Assembly: GCF_004010955.1 (NCBI RefSeq)
Contig: NZ_CP025227.1
Coordinates: forward strand, 186,001-250,000
Source of the DNA: Actinomyces wuliandei
GTDB lineage: Bacteria; Actinomycetota; Actinomycetes; Actinomycetales; Actinomycetaceae
DNA length: 64,000 nt
Reading direction: 5' to 3'
The notes under the pieces were generated by a model. It was not told the DNA's origin and searched no databases. It saw only the letters and a program-made list of their open reading frames with translations. Positions 10,287 to 48,617 of this stretch are shown one piece after another. Both the position numbers and the translations under genes were made by a program. The stretch's first letter is position 1. The number at the start of each line of letters is the position of its first letter.

Positions 10287-10392
10287 GCTGCACATCTTGG
10301 ACGGGGTTGTGTGCGTCTGTCCCTGCCTGAGCACTGGCATCTCGCGGTTCCCAGACGTGAGGCAGTATTTGTCCGCTCTGAAGATGTGCAGC
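10287..10392. repeat. Fixed-spacing inverted-repeat element, copy 1
   Basis: Left arm GCTGCACATCTT (10287-10298) and right arm AAGATGTGCAGC (10381-10392) are perfect complements separated by 82 nt. The element lies in the 327-bp gap between recR and the choloylglycine hydrolase gene. The interior is unrelated to the other three copies in this window, yet its length is nearly the same. The rest of the gap shows no gene; an AT-richer stretch near 10520-10535 may hold the hydrolase promoter. Confidence 0.75.
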
Positions 10393-10567
10393 GTGGTAGG
10401 GCGGGCGGCACCGTGATCTTGATCGTGGTCCTGATCATGATCTTGGCGGTGCTTGTGTCTCAGTCTGCTGACGTCGTGCCGTGAGCAGCGCCTCGGTGGA
10501 GAGGCGGGTGTACGGTCCGTCCCATATATCCACGGGACGATGTCCCACCTGGGGACAAGGAGGAATG

Positions 10568-11542
10568 ATGTGCACAGGGCTGCGCTTCTCTGACGCTCAG
10601 GGGCACATGTACTTTGGACGCAACCTGGACTGGAGCTGCGGCTACGGGCAGCGAGTTGTCATCACGCCCACCGGCTACCGGGTCGCCTCGCCCTACGGCG
10701 CCCTGCCGGAGGTCAGGTACCCGGTGGTCGGCATGGGTATTGTCGTTGACGACACCCCGCTCTACTTCGACGCCGCCAACGACCAGGGGCTGGCGGTCGC
10801 GGGACTGAACTTCCCCGGCTACGCGCAGTACGCCACTGGTCCTGTCGACGGCATGACCAGTGTCGCTGCCTACGAGTTCCCGCTGTGGGTGGCTGCGGGT
10901 TTCGCCTCGGTCGACGAGGTTGAGGAGGCCCTGACAAGCACGGTGGTGGTGGACCGCCCGGTCAACGACCAGCTTCCGTCCTCGCTGCTGCACTGGATCA
11001 TCGGTGACGCCACCCGCTCCATCGTGGTCGAGCACACCGCCGAGGGCCTCCAGGTGTTCCACGACGACGTCGACGTGCTGGCGAACCAGCCCGGGTTCGC
11101 CTACCACGCCGAGAACCTCCGCAGCTACCTCACCGTGGCCAGCGACGTGCCCGCCCCCGTGACGTGGGGGAGGTCCCGGCTGGAGCCCTACGGCTCGGGC
11201 GGTGGCATGCGCGGGCTCCCGGGCGACTACTACTCGCCCTCCCGGTTCGTGCGCGCGGCCTACCTGAACTCCCACTACCCGACCAAGAGCACGGAGGAGG
11301 ACAATGTCAGCCGCCTGTTCCACTCGCTGGCCGGGGTCGCCATGATCGACGGCGCGGCGCGCATGGGCGACGGCAGCTATGAGGTCACCGTCTACACCGG
11401 CGGCTTCTCCTCACGCACGAGCACCTACTACTACTCCACCTACGAGGACCCAGCGGTGCGCGCGGTGGCCATGGGTGACTACGACCTCACCGGCACGGAG
11501 CTGGTCCAGGTCGAGGAGCCGGCTGTCAGGAAGCTCTGCTGA
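10568..11542 (+). CDS. Choloylglycine hydrolase family (bile salt / penicillin V acylase type)
   Basis: 324 residues, an Ntn-hydrolase that acts after removal of Met1 to expose Cys2. The catalytic set of the family is in place: Cys2, Arg18 and Asp21 (MCTGLRF and FGRNLDW), Asn81 (AGLNFPGY), Asn173 (LANQPGF) and Arg226 (SPSRFVRA). It would hydrolyse amide bonds of conjugated bile salts or related N-acyl substrates in the cytoplasm; the substrate cannot be fixed from sequence. ATG 10568 is chosen because it places Cys at position 2 and follows AGGAGG. The longer frame upstream is not protein-like. It is followed by convergent ABC exporter genes. Confidence 0.9.
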   Translation: MCTGLRFSDAQGHMYFGRNLDWSCGYGQRVVITPTGYRVASPYGALPEVRYPVVGMGIVVDDTPLYFDAANDQGLAVAGLNFPGYAQYATGPVDGMTSVAAYEFPLWVAAGFASVDEVEEALTSTVVVDRPVNDQLPSSLLHWIIGDATRSIVVEHTAEGLQVFHDDVDVLANQPGFAYHAENLRSYLTVASDVPAPVTWGRSRLEPYGSGGGMRGLPGDYYSPSRFVRAAYLNSHYPTKSTEEDNVSRLFHSLAGVAMIDGAARMGDGSYEVTVYTGGFSSRTSTYYYSTYEDPAVRAVAMGDYDLTGTELVQVEEPAVRKLC

Positions 11543-11637
11543 CAGGGGCTGGACCGGCTGGGACTGGGCTGACAGGGCCGGACCTGGCTGCTGGGGTGGC
11601 AGGAGCCCCGGGGCGTAGCTCCACGGCCCGACGCGTC

Positions 11638-12708
11638 TCAGGCCATACGGATGCCGCGGGCAAGGTGCCCTGCGGGGACAGCAAGCTCGCGGGAGGCCGT
11701 CTCCGTCGCCCCGCAGCCCAGCACCAGGAGGACCAGCAGCGTGGTCGGCCAGAAGGGCTGCAGGCCTGAGGCGGCGTCACCGGTCCTGGCGCGGCCAGTG
11801 CTGGCTGGGGCGGGGTCGGAGGGTGAGGAGCAGTCGTCGTAGACCACCTGTGAGGGCGCGGGGACACGCATCCGGTTCACTGCCTGACCCAGCTCCGCCA
11901 GCGGGGTCTCCTGGCTGCGGTCCCTGATGCGGCCCTCCCGGGCAGAGACGTCGCTGAGGGCGGCGAAGGGGTTGGGTGCCACCATCCACCAGATCCGCTC
12001 CGTGCGGAAGATCGTGTCGGTACGGACGCTGGGCTCGGCGGCGCACACGGTCTGGGTGGCTGTGGAGGCGTCGTAGTCGATCCGGTGGTGGATCACGGTC
12101 TGGTCGTCCCGGACGGCGGCAGAGGACGCCGTCAGCACGATAGGGGTGCCCACGACCAGCGTGGCCACCGCCAGGTAGGTGAGGACGGCGGAGGCGGAGG
12201 TCCGTGCGGCCAGGCTGGAGAAGCCCAGGCCGATCCCGCAGACAGCCCCCAGCGTGACCACCAGCACCAGGAGGTGTCCCAGGAGGACCTGCCAGGCCGC
12301 CCCTCCCAGGCCAGCCAGGACCACCAGGAACGGAAGCGCCACCGCCAGGAAGGCTATGGCCGCCAACCAGGCGGCCACGAGCTTGCCTACCGCGATCTCC
12401 CGGCTGCGCAGCGCTGTGGCCTGGACCAGGGCCAGGGTGGCGTCAGCCCGGTCGCCGTTGACGGAGGTGGCCGACAGCGCCGGGGCCACGATCAGCCCCA
12501 CACCCAGGACGAAGCACAGCACCGTGTCGTAGAGGAGCGGGGCCACCCCCGCCAGGCCCGTCCCGGAGGCTGCCGCCGCGCTGCCCAGCCCCAGGACCAT
12601 GACGAGCAGCACCGTGCCCCAGGCCGCCAGCATCACCTGCCAGCGGGTGGCCCGGACCCGCTGCCTGAGCTCCAGCACGACGATGGTGCGCAGTCCTGAC
12701 CAGCTCAT
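11638..12708 (-). CDS. ABC-2 type exporter permease
   Basis: 356 residues with about six hydrophobic segments: near 25-45, 60-80, 115-140, 145-165, 180-200 and one at the C-terminus near 325-340. A large loop of about 120 polar residues precedes the last one. It lacks any enzymatic motif and partners the ATPase immediately upstream, whose stop overlaps its start by four bases (12705-12708). The pair resembles small drug, peptide or lantibiotic-immunity exporters, but the substrate is unknown. Confidence 0.8.
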   Translation of the reverse strand: MSWSGLRTIVVLELRQRVRATRWQVMLAAWGTVLLVMVLGLGSAAAASGTGLAGVAPLLYDTVLCFVLGVGLIVAPALSATSVNGDRADATLALVQATALRSREIAVGKLVAAWLAAIAFLAVALPFLVVLAGLGGAAWQVLLGHLLVLVVTLGAVCGIGLGFSSLAARTSASAVLTYLAVATLVVGTPIVLTASSAAVRDDQTVIHHRIDYDASTATQTVCAAEPSVRTDTIFRTERIWWMVAPNPFAALSDVSAREGRIRDRSQETPLAELGQAVNRMRVPAPSQVVYDDCSSPSDPAPASTGRARTGDAASGLQPFWPTTLLVLLVLGCGATETASRELAVPAGHLARGIRMA

Positions 12709-13730
12709 CGGCGCTCCTCCTCCAGACTGAGGTAGGCCTCCTCCAGCCCGCCCCCGGCGGGGGCGAAGGACACCACCTCGACCCCGGCCTCCAGGGCGCT
12801 GCGCAGGAGGCGGGCCGCCGCCGCGTCGTCGGCCACGGCCAGGCGCAGGGACCCCTCCGGGGTGGTCCGCGCCTGCGGGAGGGACTCCTGCGCCCAGCGC
12901 GCCAGCGCGAGGGTGTTGAGCGCCCGCATCCGCCAGGTCCGCTCCAGCGGCGCGGGGACGACAGTGGGCTCCTGTGCTCCGGCCTCCCGGGGTGGTGGGC
13001 TGCTGGCCCCGGGACCCGCCGCCGAGGTCCCGGCCGGGGCTCCCGGAGGGGACCCTGGTGAGGCTCCCGGTGGGCCTGTCGGGGAGGGCGGGGCCAGGGC
13101 GGAGCCGTGCGCCATGAAGATGACGCCGTCAACCACCTCCTCCAGTTCTGAGAGGACGTGGCTGGAGACCAGGACGGTGACGCCCTGGGAGGCGAGGTCG
13201 CGCAGCAGGGTACGCAGGTCGGCCCGGGAGCGGGGGTCCATTCCCGAGGCGGGCTCGTCGAGCAGCAGCACCCGGGGGCTGTGGACGAGGGCACGCGCCA
13301 GGCCCAGGCGTTGCCTCTGCCCCAGGGAGAGGACCCGCGCGGGGGTGCGGGCCATGTCGGAGAGGTAGACCAGGGAGAGCATCTGGTCGGCCCGGTCCCG
13401 GGCGGTGCGCGGGTCCAGGCCCTGGGCGGCCGCGAAGGTCAGGAGGATCTCGCTACAGGTCAGGGAGTCCCAGGTGCCGAAGGTGTCGGGCATCCACCCC
13501 ACGGCCTGGTGCACCTGCCGAGGCTGGGTGACGGGGTCCAGCCCGGCGACTCTGATCGACCCGGAGTCCGGCCTCAGCAGGGCGGCCAGCATGAGCAGGA
13601 GCGTGGTCTTGCCTGCGCCGTTGGGCCCCACCAGCCCCGTGACGCTGCCGCTGGGCACCGATATGCTCAGCTGGCTCACCGCAGGCACGGAATCGAAGGA
13701 GCGGGTGACCCCGGAGGCCTGGATACTCAT
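12705..13730 (-). CDS. ABC transporter ATP-binding protein
   Basis: 341 residues. Residues 1 to about 215 are a complete ATPase: Walker A GPNGAGKTTLL (about 37-47), signature LSLGQRQRLGLARAL, Walker B VLLLDEPASGMD and an H-loop SSH. After it comes a 50-residue Pro/Gly/Ala linker and a C-terminal alpha/beta segment (about 270-341) of the kind found in ABC-2 exporter ATPases. ATG 13730 is used because the frame beyond it has no family similarity. It is transcribed with the permease. Confidence 0.88.
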   Translation of the reverse strand: MSIQASGVTRSFDSVPAVSQLSISVPSGSVTGLVGPNGAGKTTLLLMLAALLRPDSGSIRVAGLDPVTQPRQVHQAVGWMPDTFGTWDSLTCSEILLTFAAAQGLDPRTARDRADQMLSLVYLSDMARTPARVLSLGQRQRLGLARALVHSPRVLLLDEPASGMDPRSRADLRTLLRDLASQGVTVLVSSHVLSELEEVVDGVIFMAHGSALAPPSPTGPPGASPGSPPGAPAGTSAAGPGASSPPPREAGAQEPTVVPAPLERTWRMRALNTLALARWAQESLPQARTTPEGSLRLAVADDAAAARLLRSALEAGVEVVSFAPAGGGLEEAYLSLEEERR

Positions 13731-13972
13731 GGACTCATCATATGGTTGGCGGCCCTGCCGACACCCGGGCGTAACGGAGGCGACGTAGGCTGTGCCCAGC
13801 CACGCCGCTGTGGGCGCCGTCTGCGGCGAGGGTCCTGCGAGAGCCCTCACGCTCCCGGCCGTCCTCGGACACTCTCGGCTGTCCCCGGACGTCCAGGGGC
13901 CTCCCGTCGTGGCTGCCGCGCCCGCCGCGACGCGGCAGCGCAGGTGGTACCGGACCCGAGGAGCAGCCCAGC

Positions 13973-15478
13973 ATGGCACTGGTCGTCCAGAAGTACGGCG
14001 GATCGTCCGTCAGCGACATTGAGGCGATGCGCCGTGTCGCCAGGCGCGTGGTCGCCACGCGTGAGGCAGGGAACACCGTCGTCGTCGTGGTCTCTGCCAT
14101 GGGTGACACCACCGACGAGCTGCTCGACATGGCCGGTGCCCTGACCACGAGCCCCTCGGCCCGTGAGATGGACATCCTGCTCAGCGCGGGCGAGCGTATC
14201 TCCATGGCCCTGCTGGCCATGGCGGTGGGGGAGCTGGGCGTGCCCGCCCAGGCCTACACCGGCGCCCAGGCTGGGGTCCTCACCGACTCCAGGTACGGCC
14301 GGGCCTCGATCGTGGGCGTCCTGCCCGAGCGTGTCGCCCGTGCGGTCCAGGCCGGCGCCGTGGCCATCGTGGCGGGCTTCCAGGGGATCAACGAGGTCGA
14401 GGACGTCACCACCCTGGGCCGTGGTGGCTCCGACACCACGGCCGTGGCCCTGGCGGCAGCCCTCAACGCCGACGTGTGCGAGATCTACACCGACGTGGAC
14501 GGCCTGTTCACCGCCGACCCGCGCATCGTGCCCACAGCCAGGCGCATCGAGGCGCTGTCCAGCGAGGAGACCCTGGAGCTGGCCGCCCACGGCGCCAAGA
14601 TCCTCCACCTGCGGGCCGTGGAGTACGCCCGCCGCTTCGGGGTGCCCCTTCACGTGCGCTCCTCCTTCTCGGACAGGACCGGCACCTGGATCTACGACGG
14701 CACCCGCCGCGACGTCTTTGTGCCTCCCATGGTCGCCGCCGGGCTCGACGACGTCGTGGCTGCAGACGCAGCGGCTCCGGCGGACTCGACGGCTCTAGCA
14801 GCAGGCTCAGCCGCTGGCGGCCCTGTCCCGGCTACCCGCTCCGGCCGCCCGGTCCTGGACGAGGCCCCCACCGCTGACGTCGTCGACACCGCCCACCGCC
14901 ACGCCATCGCCACCAGGGCACAGGCCCGCCCCCGCCCGTCCGCCAAGGAGGACCCCGTGGAAGCCCCCGTCATCTCCGGTATCGCCCACGACCGCAGCCA
15001 GGACAAGATCACCCTGGTGGGTGTGCCCGACGTCCCCGGCGCGGCCGCCCGCATCTTCGCCATCGTCGCCGGCGCAGGCACCAACATCGACATGATCGTC
15101 CAGGACGTCTCCGCCGAGGGCACCGGGCTGACCAACATCTCTTTCACCTGCCCCGACGGTGACTCCGCCTCGGCGCGCGCGGCCCTGGAGGCCGCCCAGG
15201 CCGAGCTGGGCTTCAGGTCCCTGCACTTCGACCCCAGGATCGGCAAGCTCTCCCTGGTGGGAGCGGGCATGCGCTCCCACCCGGGGGTCTCAGCCCGGTT
15301 CTTCAGCGCGCTCAGCGAGGCGGGCATCAACATCCACATGATCTCCACCTCCGAGATCCGCCTGTCAGTCGTGGTGGATGACGGCGTCCTCGACGAGGCC
15401 GTGCGCGCCGTCCACTCCGCCTTCGGCCTGGACGCCGAGGACACCGAGGCCGTCGTGTACGGGGGCACCGGCCGGTGA
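13973..15478 (+). CDS. lysC: Aspartokinase
   Basis: 501 residues. The kinase domain starts with [12 protein letters not shown] and carries the aspartate and ATP-binding segments ([17 protein letters not shown]). Two C-terminal ACT domains (about 335-495) give feedback control by lysine/threonine. It phosphorylates aspartate, the first step to lysine, threonine, methionine and diaminopimelate. It is about 80 residues longer than usual because of an Ala-rich insertion (about 260-330) between the catalytic and ACT parts. It starts 12 nt after GAGGAG, and asd follows 146 bp downstream. Confidence 0.95.
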
Positions 15479-15594
15479 GGCGGACCCTGCCTGCCGCACG
15501 CAGACCGCCGCACCCAGTCTCTGCGCCCGGCCTCTGCGCCGCCTCTGTGCCCGGCCTCCATCGCCTCGACGGCGCACCCCGCTACGCTCGGTGA

Positions 15595-16713
<1,119 letters not shown>

Positions 16714-16740
16714 GAGAGCCCGGCCTCAGCCGCTCCGTGC

Positions 16741-16761
16741 GGCGCCCCGGACTAGGGCGCC
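16741..16761. terminator. Hairpin between convergent asd and monooxygenase genes
   Basis: GGCGCCC (16741-16747) and GGGCGCC (16755-16761) form a perfect 7-bp stem with a 7-nt loop in the 53-bp space between two converging genes, so it could serve both strands. Confidence 0.55.
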
Positions 16762-16766
16762 TCCTG

Positions 16767-18092
16767 TCAGACGCGCGGGTCCAGGCCGTACTGGGCGGGT
16801 GCCCCCAGGTGCTCACGCAGCGTGGTCCCCTGGTACTCCTCGTGGAATAGTCCGCGCTCACGCAGGATCGGGACCACCTCGTCGACAAAGGTGTCGATCC
16901 CGTCCTCGTTGACGTCGGGTGACACCCAGAACCCGTCGCAGGCTCCGGCCTCGAACCACTCCTGCAGGTGGTCGGCGACCACGGAGGGTGGCCCGACCGG
17001 GGTCGGGTGGTAGTCGATGATCCCGTGGGCCAGGATGTCCCGAATGGTCCAGCCCTGCCGGGCCACCGCCAGGGCACGCTGGGAGCGCGGGTCGAAGCCG
17101 CTGGGCCGGGCGTCGGCCAGCTCGGCGTCGGTCAGGGGCCGGTCAACCTGCTCCGGCTCCAGGGGCAGCCCCAGCATGGCACCCAGGTAGGGGACCCGGC
17201 GGGGGGCGCTGACCTCGTCCAGGTGGCGCCTGCGGGCCAGCGCCTCCTCCACGGTGCTGCCGATCAGGGGCATGACTCCGGCGAAGAACTTGACCTCGTC
17301 AGGGTTGCGACCGTACTGGTGCGCGGCCTGCCGGGCAGCCCGACGCTGTGCCCGGGCGTCCTCGACAGTGAAGGCTGCCCCGATGACCCCGCTGGCGTAG
17401 CGTCCGGCGATGGTCAGGCCGTACTCCCCGCCCCCGGCGGAGAAGATGACCGGCTGGCCCTGCTCAGACGGCGGGATGGGAAGCGGCCCTTGCGAGGCAA
17501 CGTGCTCCCCGCGCAGGCCGACCGGGCGGACCTGGTCCAGGTCGACGAAGCGGCCGGAGTCCTTGTCCCGGGTCCAGGCCTCCTCGCCCCAGCTGCCCCA
17601 CAGGGCCTGGACGGCCTGGATCACCTCGTGCGCCCGGCCGTAGCGCACGGGGCGCTCGGCGATAGTCTGCCCGAAGTTGGCGGCGGCGGCCGGGTCCGCG
17701 GTGGTCACCGCGTTCCAGCCGAAGCGGCCGTGGGTGGTGACGTCAAGCGCCTTGTACTGGCGGGCGATGTTGTAGGGCTCGTTGAAGGTGGTGGTGCCAG
17801 TGGCGACGAACCCGATTCGTGAGGTCTCTCGGGCCAAGGCCGCGACCGTGACCACCGGGTCGATGGTGGCCTGGGGGATGCCCTCGCCCATGGAGGGTGT
17901 GATCGCGAGGTTGTCCGGCAGGAAGAGGAAGTCGATGGTGCCGCGCTCTGCGGCCCGGGCGTAGCGGACCTGTGCCTCAATGTCGGTGTAGGCGGCTGGG
18001 TCCACGCCGGGGGCGCGCCAGGCGTTGGCCTGGGAGCCGTAGCCGGTGCCCAGGTGCATGCCGAGGATCATCTGTCGTGCGGTCGTGGTCAT
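16767..18092 (-). CDS. FMN-dependent monooxygenase, NtaA/SnaA/DszA family
   Basis: 441 residues of the luciferase-like fold. The opening ILGMHLGTGYGSQANAWR, the FLFLPDN segment and the HGRFGWNAVTT stretch are typical of the NtaA/DszA branch, which oxidises nitrilotriacetate, thiophene sulfones and similar compounds using FMNH2 supplied by a separate reductase. That reductase is the next gene upstream on the same strand, 26 bp away. The substrate is unknown; roles in sulfur or nitrogen scavenging are both reasonable. Regulation is probably by the divergent TetR protein. Confidence 0.85.
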   Translation of the reverse strand: MTTTARQMILGMHLGTGYGSQANAWRAPGVDPAAYTDIEAQVRYARAAERGTIDFLFLPDNLAITPSMGEGIPQATIDPVVTVAALARETSRIGFVATGTTTFNEPYNIARQYKALDVTTHGRFGWNAVTTADPAAAANFGQTIAERPVRYGRAHEVIQAVQALWGSWGEEAWTRDKDSGRFVDLDQVRPVGLRGEHVASQGPLPIPPSEQGQPVIFSAGGGEYGLTIAGRYASGVIGAAFTVEDARAQRRAARQAAHQYGRNPDEVKFFAGVMPLIGSTVEEALARRRHLDEVSAPRRVPYLGAMLGLPLEPEQVDRPLTDAELADARPSGFDPRSQRALAVARQGWTIRDILAHGIIDYHPTPVGPPSVVADHLQEWFEAGACDGFWVSPDVNEDGIDTFVDEVVPILRERGLFHEEYQGTTLREHLGAPAQYGLDPRV

Positions 18093-18118
18093 GGTGCTCC
18101 TGCGGTGCGGGTCGGTGT

Positions 18119-18616
18119 TCAGGCTGCCAGGTGGTGCAGCCCACGTGCGTAGAAGATGAGGGGGTCGACGTCCCCGTCCTGGTCGATCGCCAGGACGCGC
18201 ATGAGGGCGATGTCGTGGTCCCCGGCCTCAATAACCCTCTCCGGTGCCACGCTCAGGGTGACGGGAGACCCCAAGAGGGAGGCGTCGTCGTCACGCAGCG
18301 CACACTCCAGCCCGGTGAACCGTTGGGCGCTGGGGCCAGCCAGTTGCGACACCAGCGCGCTGTGCTCGGCACCCAGGACGCTGATGCGCAGGAGGGGGGC
18401 CTGGCGCAGGCGCGGCCAGGTGGTGGAGGTCCGGGCGAAGGAGACCGACACCAGCGGTGGCTCCAGCGACACCGAGGTAAAGGAGCTGGCCAGCATGCCG
18501 GCGGGGGCTCCGTCGTCGTCCAGGGCGGTGACCAGCACGATTCCGGTGGGATAGCTGGACAGTGCCCGGCGCAGGGCCTGGGGTGTGAGGGGGGCGGCGG
18601 GACGTGGCGGCATCAT
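18119..18616 (-). CDS. Flavin reductase (HpaC/NtaB-type) for the neighbouring monooxygenase
   Basis: 165 residues of the split-barrel flavin reductase family, with FPTGIVLVT-like YPTGIVLVTALDDDG near the start and SFTSVSLEPPLVSVSFAR in the flavin-binding part. It would reduce FMN with NAD(P)H and pass it to the monooxygenase. Two ATGs are adjacent (18616, 18613); GGAG lies just upstream of the first. It is transcribed away from the TetR gene. Confidence 0.85.
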   Translation of the reverse strand: MMPPRPAAPLTPQALRRALSSYPTGIVLVTALDDDGAPAGMLASSFTSVSLEPPLVSVSFARTSTTWPRLRQAPLLRISVLGAEHSALVSQLAGPSAQRFTGLECALRDDDASLLGSPVTLSVAPERVIEAGDHDIALMRVLAIDQDGDVDPLIFYARGLHHLAA

Positions 18617-18665
18617 GGGGCTCCGTTCGCCTACGATGGGTGAGTGTCTCCGCAGCAAACAATAT

Positions 18666-18678: not shown

Positions 18679-18706
18679 GTTTATCAATGAAGCAGGAGTG
18701 TGATCC

Positions 18707-20078: not shown

Positions 20079-20189
20079 CTGCTGCACATCTTCGGACGGT
20101 CCCGGCGGGTTGGGTGCTGGCGTGTTGGTGTTGTGGCGCGGGTGCCGGGCTGAGTCAGGTGGAGGGGCGGAGCTGAAGATGTGCAGCAG
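20079..20189. repeat. Fixed-spacing inverted-repeat element, copy 2
   Basis: Left arm CTGCTGCACATCTTC (20079-20093) and right arm GAAGATGTGCAGCAG (20175-20189) are perfect 15-nt complements. Counted between the shared decamers TGCACATCTT and AAGATGTGCA, the gap is 83 nt. A degenerate further half-site, GAAGAATGTGGAGC, follows at about 20194. The element lies between trxA and gadB. Confidence 0.75.
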
Positions 20190-21746: not shown

Positions 21747-21755
21747 GGGGTTACC

Positions 21756-39715: not shown

Positions 39716-39722
39716 CAGCCTG

Positions 39723-39993: not shown

Positions 39994-41055
39994 ATGGTGG
40001 TGGGAGTGCTGCCGGGCAGCGGGCACGCTACCCGGCACGCCTCGGCGACGTCGCGGACCCAGAGGGTGCTGGACGCCGTAGGGAAGAGACGTCTGACGTT
40101 GGGCGGGTCGGCGCGCTCAGCTGCCTCCCCTGCCGACGCCTCTGCTGCCAGCCCGGCTGTGCTCCCGGCGGCCTGGAAGGAGACGGCCCGCTCCAGTGCC
40201 GACCGCTCCCGTCTGGTACGTCGCCTGGTCTACGCCCTCACGAGTGAGGAGGTGCAGGGGCGGCCCCTGTGGACGGACGTGACGATTCCTACCGATCCCG
40301 ACGAGCTGCGGGCTCTTCTTGGGTTCATCCTCACGACCCGGCCGCCGGGCGCCCTTCCCGCTGACTTCGCTGCGGACCTGGATGCCCTGCTGGAGGCTGA
40401 GGCTGCCGAGCGTGGTCGCGTTGAGGCTATGAGCCTGCCCCCTCTTGCGGTTACTCACCGGGTGGGCGGTCGGCTCGGCCGGGTCCTCGCCCTGTGGCGG
40501 GGCAACCTGGTACGTCTTCGCGCTGACGCGGTGCTCAACTCGGCCAGGCCCCGCATGCTCGGCTGCTTCGTGCCAGGACACGACTGCACCGACAACGCCG
40601 TCCACGCCGCCGCAGGTCCTGCCCTGCGTCAGGAGTGCGACTCCTACATGAGACAGGCCGAGCGCTTCGACCCGCGTCGGCGCAGCGCCGGTGAGCCCCC
40701 TGGTGGGGCGGTGCTCACTGGTGGCTACCACCTGCCGGCCAAATACGTCATCCACACGGTCGGACCTGCGATCGAGCTGGGTGCGGCGCCGAGCGTGCAG
40801 GACCGCAGGGTGCTGGCAGCCTGCTACACCTCGGCGCTTGACGTGGCAGTGGCGGCGGGGCTGGGCAGTATCGGCCTGTGCGCGGTGTCGACCGGGGCCT
40901 TCGGGTACCCCGCCGAGATGGTGGGACTGGTGGCGATGGAGGCCGTCGTGTCCTGGGTCGCCCAGCACCCCGACTCCCCCCTGCGTATCGTGCTGTGCGC
41001 GAGCACTGCGGCGGAGGCCGCAGCCTATGAGGGGGCGCTGGCGCCCCTGCCGTGA
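39994..41055 (+). CDS. Zinc-containing macrodomain protein-ADP-ribose hydrolase
   Basis: 353 residues, start uncertain (39985 or 39994). The macrodomain covers about 160-350: ADAVLNSARPRMLGCFVPGH followed by DCTDNAVHAAAGP, and the ADP-ribose loop STGAFGYP. The GCF-P-H-C-DN-H pattern is the zinc-binding signature of the bacterial Zn-macrodomains, which remove ADP-ribose from proteins modified by sirtuin-M type enzymes. A helical region of about 150 residues precedes it. No sirtuin or lipoate-type partner gene is beside it, so its substrate here is open. Confidence 0.8.
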   Translation: MVVGVLPGSGHATRHASATSRTQRVLDAVGKRRLTLGGSARSAASPADASAASPAVLPAAWKETARSSADRSRLVRRLVYALTSEEVQGRPLWTDVTIPTDPDELRALLGFILTTRPPGALPADFAADLDALLEAEAAERGRVEAMSLPPLAVTHRVGGRLGRVLALWRGNLVRLRADAVLNSARPRMLGCFVPGHDCTDNAVHAAAGPALRQECDSYMRQAERFDPRRRSAGEPPGGAVLTGGYHLPAKYVIHTVGPAIELGAAPSVQDRRVLAACYTSALDVAVAAGLGSIGLCAVSTGAFGYPAEMVGLVAMEAVVSWVAQHPDSPLRIVLCASTAAEAAAYEGALAPLP

Positions 41056-41129
41056 GGGCGGACCGTGATGGACCATGATGGGCCGCGACGGTCGGTGGGG
41101 CGTTGCCGTACCGGCCCTACCATGGGGCT

Positions 41130-41786
41130 ATGTGCCCCCAGCCTTCTGGTAGCAGCCCGGACCTCTCGACCGTGGTGCGGATCCGTGACGCTGCCATGGC
41201 TCGTTTTGCCAGGGACGGTCTGGGCGCGGGGCTGCGTGCCATCGCTGCGGACGCCGGTGTCACCGCCGGCCTCATCGTCCACCACTTCGGCTCCAAGGAG
41301 GGTCTGCGACAGGCCTGCGACGAGGAGGTTCTGCGCCTGGCGGCCCAGGCCAGGACGGACTCCGAGGTCATGGGCGGTCCTGTCGACCTGCTCACCCAGA
41401 TGTCCCGCACCGAGGACTACGTCCCGGCTACTGCCTACGCCCTGCGCTCGCTCGTCGAGGGCGGTCCTCTGGGGGCGGCCCTGCTTGAGTCCGTCGTCGT
41501 CGACACGGCAGACTACATGAGTGCCGGTGTCGCCTCCGGGCACGTGGCCCCCACCTCCGACGAGGAGGGGCGCTCCCGATACCTGGTGTACTCCGGTTTC
41601 GGTGCCCTGGTGCTCTTTGCCCGCTACGCCGCCAGCGATCCCACAGATGTCGAGGCCGTGGTCCGCGAGTTCATGGAGTGGAGCGGCCCGGTGGCCGCCG
41701 AGCTCTACTCCACGGCGCTGCTGACCGACTCGGAGGCCCTTGCGACCTACCTCCAGGCGATGCGTGGAGCGGCCGCCGGTAACTGA
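41130..41786 (+). CDS. TetR family regulator
   Basis: 218 residues. The helix-turn-helix spans about 12-55 (RIRDAAMARFARDGLG, AIAADAGVTAGLIVHHFGSKEGL). The C-terminal ligand domain has no unusual parts. It lies between the macrodomain gene and dps, all rightward; the dps start is 44 bp away. Whether it controls dps or a transporter elsewhere cannot be told. Confidence 0.85.
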   Translation: MCPQPSGSSPDLSTVVRIRDAAMARFARDGLGAGLRAIAADAGVTAGLIVHHFGSKEGLRQACDEEVLRLAAQARTDSEVMGGPVDLLTQMSRTEDYVPATAYALRSLVEGGPLGAALLESVVVDTADYMSAGVASGHVAPTSDEEGRSRYLVYSGFGALVLFARYAASDPTDVEAVVREFMEWSGPVAAELYSTALLTDSEALATYLQAMRGAAAGN

Positions 41787-41830
41787 TAAGCGACACTCGT
41801 ACTCAATGTAGTTGGTGTAAAGTAGGGGCC

Positions 41831-42328
41831 ATGAGTACTGAGACCGCTACCACTCCTTCGATCGCCCTCGCCTTCACCGCCTCTGCCGCTCTGAGCGACA
41901 GCCTTCAGCGCGTGCTGACCGACCTCATCGCTCTCGAGCTGGTGGGCAAGCAGGCACACTGGAACATCGTCGGTTCGAACTTCCGCGACCTGCACCTCAA
42001 CCTGGACGAGGTCGTCGACATCGCCCGTGAGGGCGGGGACGAGGTCGCCGAGCGCATGCGCGCCGTCAACGCGACCCCGGACGGTCGCCCGGCCACCGTG
42101 GCTGCCACCACCAGCCTGCCTACCGCCCCGGAGGGTGAGATCCTCACCTCCGAGGGCGTGGCCTACATCGTGTCCGCCATCGAGGCTGTTGTGGCCACGC
42201 TGCGTGGCGTGGACGAGCAGGTGGACGAGGAGGACCCGACCTCCTCCGGGATCATTGAGGACCTTATCGGCAAGCTTGAGCAGCAGGCCTGGTTCATCTC
42301 GGCCGAGGTCCGCAAGCCTGTGCGCTGA
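41831..42328 (+). CDS. dps: Dps family DNA-protecting ferritin-like protein
   Basis: 165 residues. The ferroxidase site of Dps is intact: KQAHWNIVGSNFRDLHLNLDEVVD supplies the His and the Asp/Glu ligands shared between subunits. It stores iron, consumes peroxide and may bind DNA. The region just upstream (41787-41830) is AT-rich for this genome and probably holds the promoter. Confidence 0.93.
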   Translation: MSTETATTPSIALAFTASAALSDSLQRVLTDLIALELVGKQAHWNIVGSNFRDLHLNLDEVVDIAREGGDEVAERMRAVNATPDGRPATVAATTSLPTAPEGEILTSEGVAYIVSAIEAVVATLRGVDEQVDEEDPTSSGIIEDLIGKLEQQAWFISAEVRKPVR

Positions 42329-42414
42329 GGCTGGTGGCTGCCCGACGCGGCGGTACCTCAACCGACTGGCCGAGGTGTCGACTGCCTGGCCCCGGCGAGC
42401 GCACTGACCTGACA

Positions 42415-42459
42415 ACGGCTCCTCCTGGCAGGACGACACGTCCTGCCAGGAGGAGCCGT
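42415..42459. terminator. Bidirectional terminator between dps and a TetR gene
   Basis: A 20-bp perfect stem: ACGGCTCCTCCTGGCAGGAC (42415-42434) with its exact complement at 42440-42459 and a 5-nt loop. It lies between two converging genes. Confidence 0.88.
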
Positions 42460-42486
42460 GTGCTGTCGGGGCAGGGGTGGTGCGAC

Positions 42487-43101
42487 TCAGGCCCGCCAGT
42501 CGCCCAGGGCTCCCTCCAGGCAGCCCAGAGCCGCCTCGACCAGCGGGTAGCGTTCCTCAGGGGGGCAGCCTGCCTGCGCCCAGCGCAGGCAGGCCGTGTC
42601 GAGGAAGCTGAGGTAGCCGTGGAAGGCGAAGTCGTCACGAGGGCCGTGGCTGCCACCGACTACCTCGGCCAGGGCGGTTACGGCCTGCTCGCGTGCCTGC
42701 TGGCGGACCTCGGTGGCGGGGCCAGGCTCATGGCCGGCCAGGAGCTGGTAGGTGGTCCACCCCGGGGTGCGCTCGATGATGAAGTCAAGGTAGGTCAGGA
42801 TCGAGGTGCGTACCCGGTCCCGGGCTGAGGAGCCGGTGGGCAGCGCCTTGTCGGCCTGGATAATCTGCGCGGCGATCTCCTGGACAGCCTGGGATACTAC
42901 CTCTGCGTACAGGCGCGCCTTGGAGGTAAAGTACTTGTGCACCAGGGCCTCGGAGGCCTCGACCTGGTGGGCTATGGAGGTCACGGACACGTCGTCGTAG
43001 GGCTGTGCGGCGAAGGCCTGGGCGGCGGCTGCGAGGATGAGGTCGCGACGCTCCTGGGGGTCCATCCGCCGACGGGGCCGCAGGTCAGTGCGCGGAGACA
43101 T
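42487..43101 (-). CDS. TetR family regulator of the GH13 gene (probable)
   Basis: 204 residues with an N-terminal helix-turn-helix (RRDLILAAAAQAFAAQPYDD, VSVTSIAHQVEASEALVHKYF) and a helical ligand domain. It is divergent from the glycosidase gene with only 38 bp between the two starts, so it very likely regulates that gene and itself. No clear palindrome is visible in this short space. Confidence 0.85.
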   Translation of the reverse strand: MSPRTDLRPRRRMDPQERRDLILAAAAQAFAAQPYDDVSVTSIAHQVEASEALVHKYFTSKARLYAEVVSQAVQEIAAQIIQADKALPTGSSARDRVRTSILTYLDFIIERTPGWTTYQLLAGHEPGPATEVRQQAREQAVTALAEVVGGSHGPRDDFAFHGYLSFLDTACLRWAQAGCPPEERYPLVEAALGCLEGALGDWRA

Positions 43102-43139
43102 GTTGACATAGTACCGGCGGCTGTGGGTATCCTCGGACC

Positions 43140-44438
43140 ATGTCTAGTGAGCAATCTAGAATAAGTGCTCCCGGGCTCCCGACCTGGGCGTCCACCTGTG
43201 TGTGGTGGCAGGTCTACCCCCTGGGGGCTACCGGGGCACCGGTGCGGCCTGAGCCGGGCGCCCCGCTGGTCGAGCCTGGTGCCGCCCCCCGGCTGGACCG
43301 CCTGGAGCCGTGGCTCGACTACGCCGTGGAGCTCGGTGCCAACGGCCTGTCCCTGGGGCCGATCTTTGCCTCCTCCACCCACGGCTACGACACGACCGAC
43401 CACTTCCGCATTGACCCGCGTCTGGGTGACGACGCCGCGTTTGACCGACTGGCCCGCTCCTGCCAGGACCGGGGGCTGGCCCTCATGCTCGACGGGGTCC
43501 TCAACCACGTGGGCGCCCAGCACCCGCTGCTGCGCGCCGCCCTGGAGGGCGGGCACGAGCGGGAGATGTTCCGCCTTGAGGGTGCTGGGCAGGATGCTGT
43601 CGGCCCCGGCTACGCCACCTTTGAGGGGCACGAGTCCCTGGCGGTGCTCAACCACGACTCCCAGCAGGTCGTAGACCTTGCAGTGCGGGTCCTGTCGCAC
43701 TGGCTGGACCGGGGGGCCAGCGCCTGGCGGCTGGACGCCGCCTACGCCGTGCCGCCCGCCTTCTGGGCACGCGTGCTGCCCCGAGTGCGCGAGAACCACC
43801 CCCAGGCGTGGTTCATGGGGGAGGTCATCCACGGCGACTACCCGGGGATCGTCACCGAGTCCACGATGGACTCCGTGACCCAGTACGAACTGTGGAAGGC
43901 GGTGTGGAGCTCGGTCAACGACGCCAACCTCTACGAGCTGGACTGGTGCCTGAGCCGCCACAACGAGATGCTGGAGACCTTCACCCCGGCCACCTTCGTG
44001 GGCAACCACGACGTCACCCGTATTGCCAGCCGGGTAGGCGAGGCCGGGGCGGCCCTGGCCGCCGTCGTCCTCATGACCGTGGGCGGGGTGCCCAGCGTCT
44101 ACTACGGTGACGAGCAGGCCTTCCGCGGGGTCAAGACCGAGACCCTGGGCGGGGACGACGAGGTCCGCCCGGCCCTGCCCGAGCAGCCCTCCGGGCTGTC
44201 GGCTGCGGGGCAGTGGATGTACCGGCTGCACCAGGACCTCATCGGCCTGCGGCGGCGCCACCCCTGGCTGGTGCGGGCGCGCACCGAGGTCACCTCCCTG
44301 GACAACCCGGTCCTGGCCTACGACGCCGTCGGGCAGGACGGGCAGCGCCTGAGCGTGAGCCTCGCGCTGGAGCCGGCCCCGCGGGCCGAGGTGCGTGCTC
44401 CCGGGGAGGAGGCGCTCGTGGTCGAGGCTCCGAGGTAG
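43140..44438 (+). CDS. GH13 alpha-glycosidase / alpha-amylase family protein
   Basis: 432 residues. The (beta/alpha)8 barrel motifs of GH13 are all present: region I LMLDGVLNHVG, region II WRLDAAYA with the nucleophile Asp, region III FMGEVIHG with the acid Glu, and region IV VGNHDVTRI with the third Asp. It acts on alpha-glucosides inside the cell, as there is no signal peptide. It is shorter than most GH13 enzymes, with a minimal C-terminal domain. It is terminated by a strong hairpin at 44476. Confidence 0.88.
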   Translation: MSSEQSRISAPGLPTWASTCVWWQVYPLGATGAPVRPEPGAPLVEPGAAPRLDRLEPWLDYAVELGANGLSLGPIFASSTHGYDTTDHFRIDPRLGDDAAFDRLARSCQDRGLALMLDGVLNHVGAQHPLLRAALEGGHEREMFRLEGAGQDAVGPGYATFEGHESLAVLNHDSQQVVDLAVRVLSHWLDRGASAWRLDAAYAVPPAFWARVLPRVRENHPQAWFMGEVIHGDYPGIVTESTMDSVTQYELWKAVWSSVNDANLYELDWCLSRHNEMLETFTPATFVGNHDVTRIASRVGEAGAALAAVVLMTVGGVPSVYYGDEQAFRGVKTETLGGDDEVRPALPEQPSGLSAAGQWMYRLHQDLIGLRRRHPWLVRARTEVTSLDNPVLAYDAVGQDGQRLSVSLALEPAPRAEVRAPGEEALVVEAPR

Positions 44439-44475
44439 GCGCCAACAAGGGGGCAGGGGCGGGGACCGGAATCTG

Positions 44476-44510
44476 TCACTGGCCCCGAGTCGCCTGGGCC
44501 AGTGAGTTTT
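44476..44510 (+). terminator. Rho-independent terminator after the glycosidase
   Basis: TCACTGGCCC (44476-44485) and GGGCCAGTGA (44496-44505) form a perfect 10-bp stem followed by GTTTT. It overlaps the longest possible start of the next gene (GTG 44502), which argues for the internal start at 44523. Confidence 0.85.
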
Positions 44511-44522
44511 CTGCAGCAATCA

Positions 44523-45955
44523 GTGAACCTCCTGGAGCGCGCGGCTGCTCGGCGTGAGGCCGCTCTGGCCAGGCTGGACGCGCGCAGCCAGTCTGACCTG
44601 GGCCAGTTCTTCACGCCCGCGGCGGTCGCGTGGATCATGGCGAGCATGCCGCGCCTGCCCGAGGGCGGGGTACTGCGGGTCCTGGATCCTGGCGCGGGTA
44701 CTGGCGTGCTCTCAGCGGCGGTGGTGGAGCGTGTACGGCGCGAGCGTCCCGATGCCCAGGTGGTGGTGACCGCTGTGGAGGTAGACCCCGGTCTGCACCC
44801 TGCTCTGGCCGAGACCCTTGAGGACTGTAGACAGGCAGGGGCACAGACCACTCTGGTGGGTGGCAGCCTTGTGGACTGGGCGCGGCACACAGATGAGCGC
44901 TTTGACCTGGTAATCCAGAACCCGCCTTACCACAAGATCCGCTCAGGATCGGCGCTTGACCGTGACCTGCGAAGCCTTGGGGTTGCTGTGCCCAACGTCT
45001 ACGCGGGCTTTATGGCGCTTGGTGCGTTGCTGCTTGCCCCAAACGGCCAGCAGGTGTCCATCACCCCCCGCTCCTGGATGAACGGCACCTACTTCACGCG
45101 GTTCCGGCGCTCCTTCCTCGGTGCTGTCGGCATTGACGCCATCCACACCTTTCGTTCGCGTGCCGAGGTGTTCGCGGACCTGGGCGTGCTGCAGGAGACC
45201 ATCATCGTCAGTGCTACGCGGGGCAGGCAGGCGGAGACGGTTCGGCTGTCTTCCTCCGTTGACCACCGCGACGACCCCACAGTCCGCGAGGTGGCGGGGA
45301 GCCAGGTTGTCACCGATGACTTCGTGTTCGTCCCGGCCACCCAGGAGGACGCCGAGGCTGTCAGCTGGATGGACTGTGCCAGGCATACGCTTGCCTCGTT
45401 GGGGCTGACCGCCTCCACTGGTCGGGTGGTGGACTTCCGCTCGCGCGAGCACCTGGCTCGGCAAGGTGGCGGGGTACTGCTCCAATGGTCTACTCCGCCA
45501 ATATCACCAGGGGGCGGGTGGTGCACCCACGAGGCAGCGTGAGCAAGCCCCAGTGGTTCCGCGCCGACTCGGCGGCGGCCTCACGGCTGCTGGTACCAGC
45601 GGGCACCTACGTGCTGGTCAAGAGGTTCGCCGCGAAGGAGGAGAGGCGGCGGCTGGTCGCGGCGGTGTGGTCCGGTGAGGGCGAGCCCGCCTTTGACAAC
45701 AAGCTCAACTACATTCACCAGCAGGGGCGCGGCCTGGAGCCCGAGGTGGCCTCCGGTCTGGCAACATGGTTGGGCTCCAAGCAGGTTGACGACTACTTCC
45801 GGGTGCTCTCCGGGCACACTCAGGTCAACGCGGGGGACCTGAGACGCATGAGGTTCCCGAGCCTGGAGCAGCTGCGGCTCATGGGGCGCCTGTCCCTGAG
45901 CCCGGAGGATGCGGTGGAACGGGTCATGAGTGCCAGTCGGATGTGGGCGGCATGA
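44523..45955 (+). pseudogene. PstI/BsuBI-type DNA adenine methyltransferase, frameshifted
   Basis: The N-terminus LLERAAARREAALARLD leads into SQSDLGQFFTP, SAM-binding VLDPGAGTGVLSAAV, catalytic QNPPYHKI and WMNGTYFTRFRR, the gamma-type order of the PstI/BsuBI methyltransferases. Near 45462-45475 (a G-rich stretch) the frame is lost. The remainder, starting PMVYSANITRGRVVHP, runs in the next frame to 45955. Restoring one base joins them into about 478 residues, the family length. The first part still holds the catalytic site, but the C-terminal recognition half would be missing. The recognition site of this family is typically CTGCAG. The stop overlaps the nuclease start (ATGA). Confidence 0.82.
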
Positions 45956-46909
45956 GCACGATTGAGGAGGCGCGGGAGGTTCTCAGGGCCTTCGGCTTTG
46001 ACAAGAAGCGTACGAACGAGGCGTCAGCGCGTACGCTACTCGCACTGGCGGGGCTGGTTGAAGGCTCATCATGGGCAGACGCGACGAACGAGCGTATGGG
46101 GGTCCGGGCTATCCTGGACTGGATGCGCGGTCCTCTGGGATACCCGATCGCCGAGAACTCGCGGGAGACGATCCGAAGGTTTGTGCTTCACCAGTTCGTT
46201 GATGCTGGATTCTGCCTCCACAATGACGATGATCCCTTGCGGGCAACCAACTCGTCGAGGAACAGCTATAGACTGAACCCAGAGGCCCTGCTCACCATCC
46301 GTCAGTACGGAAGCCCTGATTTTGCCCTTGCTGTTGAGGAGTACCTCGCGGAGGTCGGGAGCCTGACGGCCAAGTACCGAGCCGCACGCGATTTGGCCCG
46401 GATTCCGGTGACAAGCCTGATGGTGATGCCTTCACGTTGAGAGCCGGTGGGCAGAACGTGCTCATCAAGGCCATGGTAGAAGAGTTCTGCTCGTACTTTG
46501 TTCCTGGGGAGAGGTCCTGTATGTCGGTGACGCCGACTCAAAAACCGGAACGTTTGAGCATGACCGTCTTGCTGCTCTCGGAGTCGTCGTTGACGAGCAC
46601 GGAAAGATGCCTGATCTCGTGGTCTACCAGCCAGAGAAGAACTGGCTTTTTCTCATGGAGGCTGCCTCAACGCACGGTCCGGTTGACAGCATCAGATACA
46701 GTGAGTTGTCAAAGATCTTCCGCGACGCGACTGCAGGACTGGTCTACGTCTCCTGCTTCCCTGACCGGGCCGCGATGAGGAAGTTTCTTGCCGAACTGGC
46801 GTGGGAGACGGGGGTGTGGCTGGCGTCAGATCCGACCCACATGATCCACCTCGACGGCTCGCGATTCCTCGGGCCCTACGGGACAAGTCCTGAAGAGGGG
46901 CAGGAATGA
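45952..46909 (+). pseudogene. PstI/BsuBI-type restriction endonuclease, two frameshifts
   Basis: The N-terminal helical domain (MSTIEEAREVLRAFGFDKKR to about residue 155) reads to a stop at 46440. The catalytic half follows in other frames: RAGGQNVLIKAMVEEFCSYF, then VLYVGDADSKTG, HGKMPDLVVYQPEKNWLFL, EAASTHGPVD and PTHMIHLDGSRFLGPYG. These are the hallmark segments of the PstI/BsuBI nuclease fold. Frame changes lie near 46412 and 46503, each equal to one lost base. The nuclease cannot be made as one chain. Confidence 0.82.
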
Positions 46910-47286
46910 GTTGCTGATTGTGGCTCATTCGGGCTTGATGCTCCGCTCATAGACGTCCCTCGGATCCTGCTCGTGTGGGAGTCGCCTGTCTCTGTCTGGT
47001 AAGCATCCAGGTCATCGTGGGCGTAGCTGCCCAGGTGAGGCAGGCCCCGGCAGACCCCTGCTGACAGGGTCCCGCACGGGCGTCGGGGCACAGCCGTAGA
47101 TATGGCAGCCCTCCTGCTGCGCGGGCCCGCCCAGCGCGTGAGGTGCCGGCTCTGGTACGCAAGCGCATGCTCCCCTACCCAGGGCCATCGTGCTGGCCCA
47201 GGCGCGGTGCCGTCAGCCGGAGGCGGTGCCCAGGTGCCCTGCCGCGGGCCGGCCCAGGTGCGCCCAGATCACGAGAGAAGCTGCAT
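46910..47286. other. Intergenic region, nothing recognised
   Basis: 377 bp between the nuclease remnant and the dehydrogenase remnant. The left third is AT-richer than the genome. No ribosome-site-plus-frame combination is convincing and no repeats are evident. Confidence 0.4.
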
Positions 47287-48338
47287 ATGGCCACCACCGT
47301 CCAGGCCTACGGGACCCCCGCCGCGGGGGAGCCGCTCGTGCCAGTCACCATTGAGTGGCGTGAGACCGGGCCCCACGACGTCAGCCTTGACATCCTCTAC
47401 TGCGGCATCTGCCACTCCGACATCCACTTCGCCCAGGGTGACTTTGGTCCCCTCCTGGTCTCCCCGCTGGTGCCTGGCCACGAGATTGTCGGGGTCGTCA
47501 CCCAGGTGGGCAGCGCGGTGACTCGCCACCAGGTGGGCGACCGAGTGGGCAGCGGCTGCATGGTGAACTCCTGCCGCCAGTGTGAGAACTGCCGGGACGG
47601 CCAGGAGCAGTACTGCCTCAACGGCCACACTCTGGCCTTTGGCAGCCTGGACCGGGACGGGACCTATACCCAGGGCGGCTTCTCCCGGGCGGTCGTGGCC
47701 AACGAGGACTTTGTACTGCGGTTGCCCCAGAGCTTGGACCCGGTCTCAGTCGCGCCACTGCTGTGTGCGGGCATCACCGTGCACGCGCCCCAGCGCAGGT
47801 GGGGCGCAGGGCCTGGGCGGCACGTAGCCGTCGTCGGCCCGGGCGGCCTGGGTCACCTGGAGGTCAAGATGGCCGGGGTCATGGGCGCGCAGGTGACTGT
47901 CCTGTCCCGGTCCCAGGCCAAGCGGGACGCCGCCGCCCAGCTGGGTGCCGACGACTACGTCGCCACCGGCGACGGCACGGCCTTCCAGCGCCTGGCCAGC
48001 ACCTTTGACATCATCCTCAACACGGTCAGCGCGCCGATTGACTTGGACGCCCACCCGGGGATGCTGCGCCGCAGGGCACTCTCGCCACGGTCGGCGTCTC
48101 CACCGAGGCGATGACGCAAAGCGCCTTCTCCCTCCTCAACAACGGCCGCAGCCTGGCCGGGTCGCAGTTCGCCGGGATCGCGCAGACCCAGGAGATGCTG
48201 GATTTCTGCGCCGACCACGACGTGGCCGCCACGGTCGAGGCCATCGCCGCCAGCGGCATCAACGAGGCCTTTGCCCGAGTGCTGGCTTCGGACGTGCGCT
48301 ACCGGTTCGTCGTTGACACCGCCACCGTCACTGGCTAG
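47287..48338 (+). pseudogene. Zinc alcohol dehydrogenase (CAD/YahK-like), frameshifted
   Basis: Reading from ATG 47287 gives the catalytic zinc site (CGICHSDIH, GHE), the structural zinc cluster CRQCENCRDGQEQYC and the cofactor fold VVGPGGLGHLEVKMA. At about 48083, in a GGG run after CGCCGCA, the frame breaks. The continuation TLATVGVSTEAMTQSAFSLL reads in the next frame to 48338. One added base restores a 350-residue NADP-type alcohol dehydrogenase. The truncated chain lacks the end of the cofactor domain and the last catalytic segment. Confidence 0.82.
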
Positions 48339-48392
48339 GTGCGTGAGGCCTGAGACCGTTGATGATGTGGTCTGGGCCAGGTAAGAGGATGC

Positions 48393-48501
48393 TGCTGCAC
48401 ATCTTCGCCGAGGGAGGGAGCGCACAGTCAGCGCACAGTCACCGAGATGGCGCGGAAAGAGGCCAGCGCACGGCCGCAGACGGGGCTGAAGATGTGCAGC
48501 A
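48393..48501. repeat. Fixed-spacing inverted-repeat element, copy 3
   Basis: Left arm TGCTGCACATCTTC (48393-48406) and right arm GAAGATGTGCAGCA (48488-48501) are perfect complements. The shared decamers are 83 nt apart. The interior contains a short direct repeat AGCGCACAGTC twice and is unrelated to the other copies. Confidence 0.75.
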
Positions 48502-48508
48502 CGCCCCC

Positions 48509-48617
48509 CGTTGCACATCTTCAGCCCCGCTGCGGTGCCCGGGGCGGTTCGGTACCCGTTCAATGACGCCACTTTGCCTGCGGCCAGCAGGTGCAGGCAG
48601 CCCCAAGATGTGCAACG
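48509..48617. repeat. Fixed-spacing inverted-repeat element, copy 4
   Basis: Left arm CGTTGCACATCTT (48509-48521) and right arm AAGATGTGCAACG (48605-48617) are perfect complements, again 83 nt apart. It follows copy 3 after 7 bp. Its outer arm bases (CGT / ACG) differ from copies 1-3, but the two arms change together. The 296-bp gap between the dehydrogenase remnant and the NUDIX gene is largely filled by copies 3 and 4. Confidence 0.75.

Follow-up and report, generated by a model that had tools for sequence, protein, structure and literature searches.

In a 64,000-nucleotide stretch of Actinomyces wuliandei DNA (contig NZ_CP025227.1, positions 186,001 to 250,000; here called the window), an earlier note had drawn attention to four pairs of complementary decamers, TGCACATCTT...AAGATGTGCA. 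We found that these pairs are units of a dispersed element in which two inverted arms and a central palindromic core are spaced in steps of the DNA helix. Such elements adjoin a gene whose product, judged from structure predictions, most likely combines an N-terminal AbiEi-like DNA-binding fold with a C-terminal Vsr/I-Bth0305I-like endonuclease. With a probability of roughly 0.65, element and endonuclease form an undescribed pair that works, by analogy, like REPINs (doublets of repetitive extragenic palindromic sequences, REPs) and RAYTs (REP-associated tyrosine transposases), its enzyme being unrelated and its sites lying in helical phase.

Helical phasing of arms and core

All four decamer pairs were recovered, with 82, 83, 83 and 83 nt between the decamers, and no such pair appeared when the window was shuffled 100 times. 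Their intergenic position was borne out from the flanking open reading frames (ORFs). In the whole A. wuliandei genome (G000; one contig of 3,107,761 bases), the exact pattern with a gap of 70-100 nt occurred 54 times and its reversed control not once; the bare decamer was present 91 times in forward and 92 times in reverse orientation.

For the analysis of spacing, stretches around the decamer sites were taken (388 kb, 12.5% of the genome), and neighbouring arms were paired with one mismatch tolerated, or two if behind TGCACAT. This yielded 103 head-to-head pairs with arm-start distances of 71 (1), 82-83 (24), 92-94 (31), 102-105 (16), 112-117 (15), 125-127 (6), 137 (2), 144-146 (2) and 158-161 (6). 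The gap had been thought fixed at 82-83 nt, but it changes in 11-bp steps across nine classes. A line through these classes (71, 82, 93, 104, 115, 126, 137, 145 and 160), which were drawn from the same data as the fit, had a slope of 11.0 bp. The phase vector reached a length of 0.89 at 11.0-11.1 bp, whereas the 99.9th percentile was 0.31 in 2000 random sets uniform over 70-129 and maximised over periods. The slope agrees with in vivo fits for lac repressor looping, given as 11.08 and 11.60 bp per turn in the available part of PMC1762422.

The commonest locus form had four arms in the order > < > <, i.e., two units; the third and fourth pairs of the window are a single locus of this kind. Among 45 four-arm A. 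wuliandei loci with inner arms 22-25 bp apart, the inner spacer was 13 nt in 43 and 14 nt in 2. In A. bowdenii, sampled at 50 loci, 47 of 65 arm clusters were four-armed and the inner distance was 23 bp in 56/56, with unit distances of 71 (29), 82 (68), 83 (5), and 94, 104 and 163 (one each). Tabulated genome-wide, the gaps were not random. The proposal that spacing itself matters, with arms near nine helical turns apart as if a protein bridged the two sites, receives strong support from this quantisation of about 11 bp. It was seen in A. wuliandei, in A. bowdenii and, with other arms, in the type-2 elements described below, mostly those of genome G027.

Variants of the locus form were also noted. 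Both inner arms ended in CAT, not CTT, at C1:48127, 307362, 474546, 1028583, 2444969, 2750929, 2764478, 2817879 and 2957215 of A. wuliandei, and CAT-ending loci often had long units of 115-160 bp. The A. bowdenii loci L142 (5955-6224) and L151 (918-1220) held three consecutive units with identical 13-nt spacers, as if by tandem duplication.

The interiors had been described as unrelated, but a phased 22-bp palindromic core is common to the units. A. bowdenii interiors were constrained, not free, and a core matrix (half-site near GATCCGCRKGA) was trained on them, with A. wuliandei outside the training and with one A. bowdenii locus (L174) and the 163-bp unit left out. With the 95th percentile of shuffled interiors as threshold, a core was found in 100/104 A. 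bowdenii and 67/103 A. wuliandei units. Its centre lay 30, 41, 51, 52 or 62 bp from the outer arm end in A. bowdenii, and mostly 41, 51-52, 62-63, 72-74 or 84-86 bp (few others) in A. wuliandei; in the window, the candidates were 51-52 bp from the tips. Counted on both sides, the core-arm phase had an R of 0.99 at 10.5 bp in A. bowdenii (n=200) and 0.85 at 11 in A. wuliandei (n=134), compared with 0.11 and 0.05, respectively, for shuffled interiors. Among the A. wuliandei units below threshold, 26 of 36 had their best candidate at an allowed distance pair, where 5.8 were expected; the allowed distances came from the core analysis above. Interiors homologous as in a plain miniature inverted-repeat transposable element (MITE) were not found, yet the short core is common and the units of 158-161 bp have visibly similar interiors.

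Inverted arms around a palindromic core could also fold, as in a terminator or structured RNA that the arms would close, and the earlier note had taken the arms to covary and had considered an RNA with a terminal stem. Pair-specific covariation was absent at 45 four-arm loci of A. wuliandei and 51 of A. bowdenii, where flank identity of paired arms was about that of shuffled pairs. One outer A. bowdenii flank column was raised by 1.7 to 3.8 standard deviations (sd), alike in all six arm combinations. Arms 2 and 3 of A. wuliandei had inward bases in common (up to +4.4 sd), and A. bowdenii flanks were common to arms 2 and 4 and, less, to 1 and 3, as expected from unit duplication. Furthermore, the 11-bp steps lie in unconserved stretches, the type-2 outer arm TGCACGCTCA can pair with the inner arm YGCACATGGGAG over the first bases only, the elements show no orientation preference relative to genes, and Rfam gave no match at element sites. 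An RNA element was therefore rejected and seems very improbable; the arms look like protein-binding sites.

The partner gene and its arm classes

One gene sits between two elements in A. wuliandei (C1:2957556-2958449), and likewise in A. bowdenii. The predicted folds of its product were AbiEi-like and Vsr-like among the families listed by Foldseek, whose matches were re-examined with VIA-align, and the acidic and histidine residues of the nuclease were invariant. Proteins joining an AbiEi-like part to a DUF559/MTES_1575 nuclease have relatives in other Actinobacteria. Within the genus, 40 of 49 genomes had a homologue at 1e-10, and 19 of 49 had one of at least 190 bits, a cut-off for strict group I that was picked after viewing the list.

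At 16 of the 20 strict group-I loci (A. wuliandei has two), an inverted repeat with arms of at least 7 and exactly 13 nt apart was found within 190 bp. It lay 20-65 bp past the stop codon in 13 cases and at the stop in two, and one gene had an element on each side. Of the remaining loci, that of G037 had two pairs, one of 5 bp at a distance of 26 bp and one of 13 bp at 208 bp, and those of G019 and G013 had imperfect pairs by eye. By chance, any one gene end would have an element within 100 bp at a rate of 2e-4 to 3e-3 per genome.

The arms followed protein kinship, being TGCACACTGGA in G010, G042 and G028, CGCACATGGGAGC in G027 and CGCACGTGGGAGC in G037. In line with this, A. wuliandei holds two partner proteins and two element types; its second protein and that of G015 have 94% identity, and each is located at an element with TGCACATGGGAG.

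Different species carried different arms in the same layout. The type-1 inner pair, ATGTGCA-N13-TGCACAT, was present in 16 of 49 genus genomes and in 12 of 200 family genomes, all 12 among the 37 genus members of that set; matches of the genome scan outside Actinomyces were taken as chance or terminators. In type 2, the outer arm TGCACGCTCA is unlike the inner one. It was found within one mismatch in 59 of 78 type-2 half-elements, which include near-identical copies, against an expectation of 0.007 each. Type-2 unit lengths were 70 (6), 80-81 (3), 92-93 (31), 102-105 (15), 114 (2) and 150 (2), and cores scoring >4 lay 41 (27), 51-52 (11), 39-40 (3), 24 (6) or 98 (2) bp from the outer tip. The type-2 pattern was present in 18 of 49 genus genomes, and both types together covered 26. 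Type-2 elements also occur in A. wuliandei (C1:44267 and 335855); their probable orthologues in G015 are at 40372 and 309515.

A strict group-I protein was encoded in 19 of the 26 genomes with TGCAC-type elements and in 0 of the 23 others (Fisher 3.5e-8, the genomes being related). Plain co-occurrence by presence and absence proved partly wrong as an explanation, since loci meant as negatives carry other-arm units: in 8 of 9 examined genomes of those 23, a weaker homologue stood beside units that had the same core but other arms. The contrast therefore reflects that a protein clade goes with its arm class. Of 11 weaker homologues in the genus (L280-L290), 9 were flanked by units whose arms were different (GTGTCCAAATCGG or similar; GGGAGGATCGTTCG in G033). 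These units were exactly symmetrical (61/61 in most cases, or 52/52), their cores scored about 20-25, and seven of the loci had more than one unit. In G033, G046, G014, G041, G001, G018, G020, G031 and G040, the units bracketing the gene had the same core and wholly different arms. The core thus seems to be general, and the arms appear to be specific to a clade. At distant-homologue loci of other genera, core-bearing units were found in 0 of 27, and a further 186 kb of sequence yielded two weak matches. At L281 of G043, repeats AGGTTTGAGGATT...AATCCTCAAACCT flank the homologue on both sides and a good core is absent; this is perhaps a further arm class.

Genomic setting and turnover

None of 112 clusters lay within genes called by our own gene caller, and some overlapped a gene end by at most 33 bp. 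The neighbouring genes of A. wuliandei loci were codirectional in 36 cases, divergent in 13 and convergent in 8, with one locus at an edge. This resembles the background of window gaps of at least 100 bp (12, 8 and 4, respectively), and terminators or operators were rejected as explanations because of this match. It also argues against a regulon, in which an AbiEi-type repressor would control its own gene and, through the dispersed loci, further genes. Such autoregulation has precedent, as AbiEi and Rv2827c repress their own promoters via inverted repeats, according to the available part of PMC7319586. However, the gene-linked element is mostly at the 3' end of the gene, and when the flanking proteins were grouped, the 25 largest groups revealed no common theme. 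We regard a regulon as improbable.

An excess in the origin-proximal half was found in A. wuliandei (40/58, p 0.003), G004 (19/27, 0.03) and G030 (7/7, 0.008), and no clear excess in G027 (12/19, 0.18) or G033 (5/10, 0.6). Bacterial chromosomes have dispersed sites for structural proteins, those of SlmA, Noc and MatP being models. If the elements were looping or anchoring sites of this kind, the endonuclease gene would be linked to them for regulation only. Their intergenic location in all gene orientations, the origin-half excess in three genomes and the many loci common to different species would fit such a role. The weak bias in G027 and G033, the lack of exclusion from the terminus, the difference of arms between species and the persistence of G015 despite lost sites speak against it, and we consider it unlikely, if less so than a regulon.

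The arms change little. At nine orthologous four-arm loci of G004 and A. bowdenii (those four-armed in both among 16 aligned pairs), differences numbered 187/1235 in interiors, 17/116 in spacers, 229/1028 in flanks and 3/360 in arms, a constancy biased upward by the use of arms to locate the loci. Three of the 16 aligned loci (L191/L154, L198/L163 and L207/L120) differed by roughly one unit (some 105 bp); certain interiors were wholly replaced. In G015, whose flanks are often near 90-97% like those of A. wuliandei, many sites were absent or decayed. Homology between G027 copies often ended near the outer tips, and some copies belonged to larger duplications. Distant places in G027 (L318/L328 and L321/L327) were about 97% identical over 550-700 bp of intergenic DNA that includes an element. 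Two identical single units in A. wuliandei (C1:2330798 and 2335436), 4.6 kb apart in the same surroundings, mark a recent local duplication.

Discrete units, the frequent end of homology close to the outer tips of G027 copies and presence/absence differences between A. wuliandei and G015 could be explained by a plain non-autonomous transposon (a MITE) with terminal repeats, moved by an ordinary transposase and now mostly dead. However, when 377 flanking proteins were grouped and the 25 largest groups inspected visually, no transposase was recognised, nor was one beside six lone arms, two of which lay inside unrelated genes; an ordinary transposase was rejected as the mover on these grounds. 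A clear target duplication was not seen either, and dead copies would not hold arms and phase while their interiors change. This origin appears about as improbable as a regulon. A phage or plasmid origin was rejected as well: the exact type-1 pattern had no match in viral_contigs, and plasmid matches to one locus were short (27-33 bp) and weak (E of 0.2 or more).

The features of the window are listed in Table 1. The first unit lies between recR and a choloylglycine-hydrolase-like ORF, the second between a thioredoxin-like and a glutamate-decarboxylase-like ORF, and the four-arm locus (48396-48614) between a dehydrogenase-like and a NUDIX-like ORF, identities that we presume from the translations. 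A one-mismatch arm (TGCACATCAT) at 10565-10574, within the ORF after the first unit, lacked a partner arm at the expected place and is probably due to chance. Elsewhere in the window, Rfam identified a small signal recognition particle RNA (6482-6576, +) and tRNAs (58641-58714, -; 6058-6142, -).

Table 1. Arms, core candidates and spacer of the four units in the window
Feature	Position	Strand	Remarks
Arm, unit 1	10289-10298	+	Exact decamer
Best core candidate, unit 1	10329-10350		Score 8.8 (core matrix of A. bowdenii); centre 51/51 bp to arm tips
Arm, unit 1	10381-10390	-	Exact decamer
Arm, unit 2	20083-20092	+	Exact decamer
Weak core candidate, unit 2	20123-20144		Score -2.1, under shuffle threshold; expected place, 51/52 bp to tips
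Arm, unit 2	20176-20185	-	Exact decamer
Outer arm, unit 3 (four-arm locus)	48396-48405	+	Exact decamer
Best core candidate, unit 3	48437-48458		Score 6.1; centre 52/51
Inner arm, unit 3	48489-48498	-	Exact decamer
13-nt spacer between the inner arms	48499-48511		Sequence; equal spacing at other loci
Inner arm, unit 4	48512-48521	+	Exact decamer
Best core candidate, unit 4	48553-48574		Score 4.9; centre 52/51
Outer arm, unit 4	48605-48614	-	Exact decamer

Proposed mechanism and known systems

Next to what was observed (phasing, core, low arm change, adjacency of gene and element, agreement of arm class with protein clade, predicted folds and conserved nuclease residues), we infer binding, a division of site reading between the parts of the protein, cutting and mobility. 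The arms and the 22-bp core of a unit would be protein-binding sites whole DNA turns apart, usually with two units per locus and inner arms separated by 13 nt. The AbiEi part may read the clade-specific arms while a nuclease dimer sits on the common core, with the DNA between core and arms looped. Only whole-turn spacings would fit such a loop. Enzyme action at the element may then drive its copying or upkeep between genes, as is thought of RAYTs for REPINs; dispersal by the enzyme is suggested by G027 copies, whose homology often stops close to the outer tips, and by the REPIN analogy, as far as the available part of PMC3116915 describes it. Taken in full, the proposal is that an AbiEi-fold/Vsr-type endonuclease reads arms and core via a phased loop, that it copies or maintains elements of some 200 bp, tens of them, between genes across Actinomyces, that arms and protein clade change together, and that the spacings read the in vivo helical repeat of about 11 bp per turn. 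For this complete version, we judge the odds to be about even.

Several observations weigh against the pairing of element and endonuclease or its phased reading. Off-phase distances occurred, at 76 with good arms in G004 and at 163 in A. bowdenii; a second off-phase distance in G004, 87, is next to a broken arm. No core above threshold was found in 36 of 103 A. wuliandei units, and the best type-2 cores were off pattern in eight cases (six at 24/80-81 and two at 98). Matches of the partner protein to Pfam were below the cut-off. In G017, a strict group-I protein is present and an element beside its gene was not found. Conversely, 7 of 26 genomes (G004, G006, G030, G033, G034, G039 and G043) had TGCAC-type elements without the strict group-I protein. 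Finally, 105 comparisons revealed no clear target-site duplication, the largest z being +3.1 (7-mer, G027) and +2.7 (7-mer, A. bowdenii).

Two genomes bear on loss of the protein. In G004, the gene and three of four surrounding units are gone and one unit is left at the junction. As the gene is still present between elements in A. wuliandei, its loss from G004 through recombination of the direct repeats around it seems more likely than that it was never there. The first protein is missing from G015, where the strict homologue is of the second kind and type-1 sites are decayed. Both losses are compatible with arms that need the protein, a fit and not a proof.

In the titles and abstract openings of literature on Actinomyces repeats and on DUF559, AbiEi or Vsr, no described system like this pair was found. 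The closest parallel is REPIN/RAYT, with short inverted repeats outside genes, preferred spacings and a usually single-copy adjoining gene, as given in the available parts of PMC3116915 and PMC8266576. The Actinomyces repeats are likewise extragenic inverted doublets with spacing classes, their partner gene is flanked by repeats (16/20 strict and 9/11 weaker loci), and repeat and protein change together. In contrast, the Actinomyces partner is predicted to be AbiEi-like plus Vsr-like and not a Y1/HUH transposase, RAYT itself not having been sought genome-wide; moreover, interiors are diverged and copies far fewer. REP hairpins of REPIN/RAYT are tagged by GTAG, whereas the Actinomyces elements lack a GTAG-tagged hairpin REP and instead have four arms and palindromic cores phased by the helix. 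Bacterial interspersed mosaic elements, which are REP mosaics in alternating orientation according to the accessible part of PMC2817692, similarly consist of alternating inverted repeats between genes with preferred spacing, but REPs are self-palindromic hairpins and the Actinomyces arms are not.

AbiEi proteins bind inverted repeats and bend DNA, and the repeats of Rv2827c are 13 bp apart within a pair, as stated in the available part of PMC7319586. The operators of Streptococcus agalactiae AbiEi and Mycobacterium tuberculosis Rv2827c thus share with the Actinomyces system the N-terminal fold, inverted repeats and, for Rv2827c, the 13-bp spacing. They differ in being promoter operators of 23-bp repeats by a toxin gene, whereas the Actinomyces elements occupy tens of dispersed loci. 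Furthermore, the Actinomyces partner has a fused nuclease, and no toxin was seen, neighbouring genes not having been searched for a nucleotidyltransferase toxin. Vsr-type (EDxHD) homing endonucleases such as I-Bth0305I resemble the partner in the predicted nuclease fold and the invariant acidic and histidine residues, but there is no intron or intein here, and the partner gene lies between dispersed intergenic elements. At P1 parS, which works with ParB and IHF, boxes lie on both sides of a centre, and helical phasing is needed. The Actinomyces arms also flank a centre in helical phase; parS is, however, a single plasmid centromere with other proteins.

If the pairing of element and endonuclease is true, it would assign a function to the little-understood proteins with an AbiEi-like part and a DUF559/MTES_1575 nuclease, and would be a second, unrelated solution to the job done by RAYTs and REPINs. 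Each inferred step is testable with one protein and short DNA. Moreover, each genome would hold tens of natural sites where evolution measured the DNA helical repeat in living cells, with a slope of 11.0 bp that stands beside the 11.08 and 11.60 bp per turn given for lac repressor looping in the available part of PMC1762422.

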